Shown here: positions 15,182-16,007 of the stretch, one piece after another
Layout: each line of letters starts with the position of its first letter
How positions within the stretch are numbered: position 1 is the first letter of the stretch
Assembly: GCA_944324155.1 (NCBI GenBank)
Contig: CALUVF010000027.1
Span: 1 to 39,011, forward strand
Reading direction: 5' to 3'
Length of the DNA stretch: 39,011 nt
Source: an uncultured Erysipelotrichaceae bacterium
Lineage (GTDB): Bacteria > Bacillota_I > Bacilli_A > Erysipelotrichales > Erysipelotrichaceae
Notes under the pieces: model-generated
What the model was told of the DNA's origin: nothing
Database searches by the model: none
The model's input: the letters and a program-made list of their open reading frames with translations, nothing else
Program-made: the position numbers and the translations under genes

Positions 15182-15208
15182 AAATAAAAAAGGTAGCAGA
15201 TCGCTACC
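15182..15208 (-). terminator. Terminator of the leftward mscL unit
   Basis: Minus strand: stem GGTAGC/GCTACC (15208-15203 and 15197-15192), loop GATCT, followed by TTTTTTATTT. It ends 13 bases past the mscL stop codon. Confidence 0.8.
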
Positions 15209-15604: not shown

Positions 15605-15847
15605 TTAACCTTTAATATTGCGATATGCGTTATGGATATAGTAATAAGGCACGACGAGCGTCAAAGCGTGCATGACGATCTGTAAGATACCCATATCAGC
15701 ATATGTGAAGAACTCCCATAAATTGATCACAAACAAGATGATCCCTAAAATTAAGGCAAAATAAGATCTCTTGTTCGCTCTTAAGACACCGATGATCCCA
15801 GTGAAGATCTCAAAAATGTGGAAACCATATAAGATGGTGATCGACAT
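15605..15847 (-). CDS. Small membrane protein, probable 3' part of a frameshifted gene
   Basis: 80 residues from ATG 15847, with about three membrane segments (ITILYGFHIFEIFTGIIGVL; FALILGIILFVINLWEFF; ILQIVMHALTLVVPYYY). I do not recognise the family. The chosen ATG lacks a ribosome-binding site, and the reading frame continues upstream to a stop at 15908-15910 with protein-like sequence (GDFSKVVNEGLAANTL). A second frame starting at ATG 15950 has AGAAGG and a strong promoter but stops after 17 codons at 15897. The two frames overlap and would join into one protein of about 114 residues by a +1 shift near 15897-15910. So this is a broken gene, a programmed shift or a sequence error. It sits just upstream of mscL in the same unit. 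Confidence 0.5.
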   Translation of the reverse strand: MSITILYGFHIFEIFTGIIGVLRANKRSYFALILGIILFVINLWEFFTYADMGILQIVMHALTLVVPYYYIHNAYRNIKG

Positions 15848-15896
15848 CAGGGTATTAGCGGCCAGGCCTTCGTTTACTACCTTGGAAAAGTCGCCA

Positions 15897-15950
15897 TTAC
15901 CAAATTTCTAAGAATCCGGCAATTCTTAAGTGTTTGCCACCTTTTAACAT
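15897..15950 (-). pseudogene. 5' fragment of the frameshifted membrane-protein gene
   Basis: 17 codons (MLKGGKHLRIAGFLEIW) with a good ribosome-binding site and promoter, ending at TAA 15899-15897. The hydrophobic end LRIAGFLEI echoes the repeat-like HIFEIFTGIIG in the downstream frame. Reading one base forward at ATT-TGG-TAA joins it to the frame of the 15605-15847 gene. Confidence 0.45.
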
Positions 15951-15978: not shown

Positions 15979-16007
15979 ATTGTAATAAAATAAGAATTGT
16001 TTGTAAA
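15979..16007 (-). promoter_or_regulatory. Promoter of the small membrane gene / mscL unit
   Basis: Minus strand TTTACA (16007-16002), a 17-base spacer, then TACAAT (15984-15979). It reads toward ATG 15950. The strength of this promoter argues that the upstream frame at 15950 is the real start of the unit. Confidence 0.55.

Follow-up and report, generated by a model that had tools for sequence, protein, structure and literature searches.

The locus upstream of mscL

The DNA analyzed here, referred to as the window, is a stretch of 39,011 nucleotides from an uncultured Erysipelotrichaceae bacterium. On its minus strand, directly upstream of an intact mscL gene, lie the two frames of a small membrane-protein gene (Table 1). 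The original prediction had described a ribosome-binding site and start codon leading into a frame that stops almost at once, a second frame that stays open and lacks a ribosome-binding site at its own ATG, and a minus-strand promoter in front, and all of these were found. AGAAGG is located six bases before ATG 15950, the first frame ends after 17 codons at a TAA (15899-15897), and the second frame runs from 15907 to 15605, 100 codons without a stop. The nearest approach to a ribosome-binding site for ATG 15847 is GAAGG, about 20 bases upstream. Another ATG overlaps the TAA (15897-15895), but is in the third frame, which ends after six codons, and would divert reinitiating ribosomes. The 3' open frame is genuinely part of a gene (family profile E = 6.0e-44) and both pieces match the same uncharacterised family of membrane proteins, which are about 127 residues long.

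Table 1 Features of the window at and around the interrupted gene
Feature	Position	Strand	Remarks
5' piece, 17 codons plus TAA	15897..15950	minus	residues 1-16 = family positions 1-16
3' piece	15605..15907	minus	other frame; family positions 31-127; open to stop
ATG-started frame inside the 3' piece	15605..15847	minus	80 residues; no well-placed ribosome-binding site
Deletion junction, 41 bases gone	15902..15904	minus	DNA alignment with five orthologues
Promoter-like pair TTTACA-17-TACAAT	15979..16007 (TTTACA 16007-16002, TACAAT 15984-15979)	minus	probable mscL operon leader
mscL, intact, 122 residues	15221..15589	minus	PF01741, E = 7.6e-40; AAAGGA in front
Terminator-like hairpin 3' of mscL	15192..15208	minus	

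The promoter was present as a promoter-like pair of hexamers, although over both strands of the stretch there were 3 such matches versus a shuffle mean of 2.5, a count not above chance. Inspection by eye found a pair at the equivalent site in genome G005 (TTTACT-17-TATAAT), where rubrerythrin and mscL flank the site as in the window, and a search for the membrane gene between those two G005 genes found none. The sequence from the rubrerythrin start to the -10 box is conserved between the window and G005 (score 63, reached by 0 of 500 shuffles). Given a pair at the equivalent site in a genome where the gene was not found, together with conservation upstream of the -10 box, the promoter-like pair is probably the leader of mscL, whether or not the extra gene is present.

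A family of small membrane proteins

A first search with the 3' piece covered 60 genomes, its own included. Three further members of the genus (G003, G004, and G008) proved to have an orthologue (55-57% identity), each in one frame and directly upstream of mscL. Scanning the species-genome collection by pattern, a method that detects close relatives only, added two from Faecalicoccus: over the 3' piece L015, from a Faecalicoccus MAG, is 68% identical and L016, from F. acidiformans DSM 26963, is 66% identical. We built a family profile from these five orthologues and searched 315 genomes of the order with it, which gave matches in 10 (G000, G003, G004, G008, G083, G158, G168, G226, G228, and G229), the G083 match being weak (E = 9.6e-9). 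G226 and G228 were taken to be the same records as L016 and L015. In a class-wide sample 4 of 395 genomes matched; three were already known and the fourth, G348, lies outside the order and was weak (E = 4.7e-4). None of 15 pattern matches in viral contigs encodes a relative, and when the window piece, L015, L003, and L005 were compared with Pfam and NCBIfam nothing scored over the curated cut-offs. A by-product of the analysis is thus an uncharacterised family of small membrane proteins, encoded directly upstream of mscL in five of the ten genomes of the order that have it (G000, G003, G004, G008, and G158).

Comparison of orthologues, as proposed in the original prediction, gave no indication that they start at the equivalent of ATG 15847, an outcome that would have refuted it. 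Among the eight full-length relatives (L015, L016, L003, L004, L005, L021, L024, and L026) six have a listed start at, or no more than two residues from, the equivalent of ATG 15950. The other two are L004, which appears to lack an ATG, GTG, or TTG at this site, and L026, the start of which is uncertain; both have the N-terminal segment. In L004 (genome G003) AGGAGGAGA at 1411 is followed by ATT CTT AAA GGA at the expected start, and either the ATT or a listed TTG farther upstream (1369) may serve as the start codon of this copy.

The Faecalicoccus proteins (L015 and L016) have 127 residues and an N-terminus near-identical to that of the window. Their genes are whole and, unlike that of the window, are not beside mscL but follow a gene for a 464-residue protein. 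The copies of G003, G004, G008, and G158 have mscL directly downstream as in the window, yet are whole; that of G158 shows 39% identity to the window in the retained region. Window positions 15608-15907 resemble the copies of Faecalicoccus, G229, and G168 (0.67-0.71) more than they resemble the congeneric copies (0.55-0.57). For MscL the identities to the window protein are 61-86% in six congeners, 82% in G158, 79% in G168, and 44% in the two g59 (Faecalicoccus) genomes compared. Judged from these sequences, the relationship of the window copy to Faecalicoccus could possibly be due to horizontal transfer or to old paralogues.

Fold comparison was attempted with a predicted model of L015 (mean pLDDT 69.3, from a three-row alignment; the means of the other four models were 46-52). 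Foldseek gave no match at E <= 0.001 (best 0.052), and the VIA-align Z values of up to 11.9 may, according to the tool, reflect just a common helical arrangement. Hence, no function was drawn from the fold.

A probable 41-base deletion in the first predicted helix

When the window was aligned as DNA with five orthologues, it had a single internal gap of 41 bases (columns 68-108), which is filled in all five. These orthologues amount to about four independent sequences because the L015 and L016 proteins are 98% identical. Owing to a run of T residues the breakpoint is uncertain by a base or two, and 3' of the gap the window has three additional bases that keep the frame. When the two pieces were scored separately with the family profile, the 5' piece gave 14.1 bits and the 3' piece 148.5 bits over the family positions listed in Table 1. 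The window is therefore missing family residues 17-30, and 14 residues are present there in all five orthologue rows (VIGVLMLLFTWTLV in L015). All eight full-length relatives carry this segment, although L026 is a weak relative, with only about 20% identity to the piece from the window. In the predicted L015 model (three-row alignment, mean pLDDT 69) the first helix consists of residues 4-30, of which the deletion would remove the second half. The frame changes because 41 is not divisible by three. The eight full-length relatives, five of them compared as DNA, pass through the site in one frame, whereas in the window the 41-base gap is a frame-shifting lesion that truncates the product at a TAA after 17 codons. 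We looked for a second copy of the gene in the genome of the window and found none.

The original prediction held that one +1 shift near the TAA joins the two frames into a coherent protein. The arithmetic is correct (16 + 98 = 114 residues), but all five orthologues have 14 more residues at the join. A single shift would connect parts that lie apart in the relatives, and the frames are out of register owing to the 41-base gap. Of the explanations originally offered, a recent null mutation was supported, with the correction that the cause is a 41-base deletion rather than a one-base shift; a sequence error of one extra or missing base was not, since 41 bases are absent. We consider it very probable that the mscL operon begins with a pseudogene, formed when a gene for a small membrane protein lost 41 bases in the part encoding its first helix. 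In this lineage the deletion within the first membrane helix would have inactivated the gene, translation would stop after 17 codons, no working protein would be made from the broken gene, and its loss would be tolerated. MscL would still be expressed from its own ribosome-binding site and, judged from the sequence, the mscL gene is most likely still translated.

Over 96 codons the 3' piece of the window differs from L015 at 28, 10, and 55 sites in codon positions 1, 2, and 3, respectively (pN 0.20; pS 0.76, which is saturated). This pattern argues that the 3' frame was under purifying selection for most of its history. In a tree of 10 sequences with modest support the window branch was 0.17, as compared with 0.32 and 0.51 for the intact L003 and L005. 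Given the imprint of purifying selection and the lack of a stop in the remaining 98 codons, the deletion looks recent, although the constraint would mostly precede the deletion and so the selection signal says little concerning the time elapsed since.

Alternatives to gene loss

An assembly fault or a mixture of strains, such that the 41 bases are absent just from the contig or from a minority of cells, is the alternative that fares best, but we regard it as unlikely. The assembly is a draft in 153 contigs, and the nine genomes of the genus compared represent one per species, this species by a single genome, which leaves room for a strain variant. However, a loss of 41 bases is unlike a one-base calling error in size, and the neighbours tested (rubrerythrin, mscL, and a PF04018 protein) gave near end-to-end family matches in one frame each. 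Moreover, other genomes likewise lack the gene or have it in truncated form.

The stop-free 98 codons could possibly give a shortened product, which is a point against the pseudogene reading. Production and use of a shortened protein, either the 80 residues from ATG 15847 or a product of another internal start, would accord with the open 3' frame and its former purifying selection. However, that selection signal would mostly predate the deletion, ATG 15847 has no well-placed ribosome-binding site, and reinitiation at the ATG that overlaps the TAA would enter the third frame and soon terminate. Such a protein would also lack the first helix, and we consider its use very improbable. We give equally little credence to an adaptive remodelling in which a 17-codon leader and the shortened protein from ATG 15847 would act with MscL or set mscL translation.

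The last option of the original prediction, a programmed +1 shift at TGG-TAA that makes the protein, resembles prfB (RF2) in that an early in-frame stop is followed by an open +1 frame, and a net +1 does lead into the 3' frame. PMC12421855 gives the elements of the prfB +1 shift as a CTTT slippery run, a stop TGA with C as the next base, and an SD-like element with a consensus approaching AGGGGG. In contrast to these hallmarks the window site reads TGG TAA T after GGATTCTTAGAAATT, with neither CTTT at the stop nor TGA-C, and the sole purine-rich run in GGATTCTTAGAAATTTGG, which stands before the TAA, is AGAAA, with no AGGGGG-like element a few bases upstream. The orthologues have no conserved shift site; they read through the site in one frame and need no shift, and the shifted product would be short of 14 residues of helix 1, half of that helix. 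In the window's own genome prfB matches its model from position 4 to 353 in a single open frame that contains no stop, its start region has no interrupting stop after the GTG, and hence it shows no use of such a shift. Our literature search on mscL and programmed frameshifting found nothing relevant. Given the lack of the prfB-type elements at the window site, the one-frame orthologues, and the loss of half a helix, a programmed shift is scarcely credible. The candidate recoding event is struck off and replaced by an ordinary, probably recent gene loss.

Absence or apparent truncation in other genomes

Of the nine genomes in the genus, three have a whole copy, one has the broken copy, and five gave no match. 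Four of these five have mscL, the exception being G002, which is 81% complete. In G168, from another genus, family positions 58-126 alone match, within a frame of 73 residues, and we take this copy to be, apparently, a separate truncation with different breakpoints. By eye, N-terminal-like AAAGGAAGCAAACATTTAAGAATT immediately precedes the helix-2 part but in a different frame (L025, 1460-1712), as if the segment between similar sequences at the beginnings of helices 1 and 2 had dropped out, although the MAFFT alignment does not place these letters in that way. The absence of a match in five of nine genus genomes (mscL being seen in four), together with the apparent second truncation in G168, suggests that the gene is dispensable in the group. 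The family is absent or broken in several relatives of its carriers.

A remnant of the gene may possibly persist between rubrerythrin and mscL in G005. In a protein comparison its score of 39 was reached by 3 of 500 shuffles, which is suggestive, whereas the DNA comparison score was reached by 247 of 1000 shuffles and the family profile (1.1 bits) gave no support. In G007 (L013 and L014) mscL itself is split across two contig ends, C22 (length 16169) and C30 (length 33143), which looks like an assembly break rather than a broken gene.
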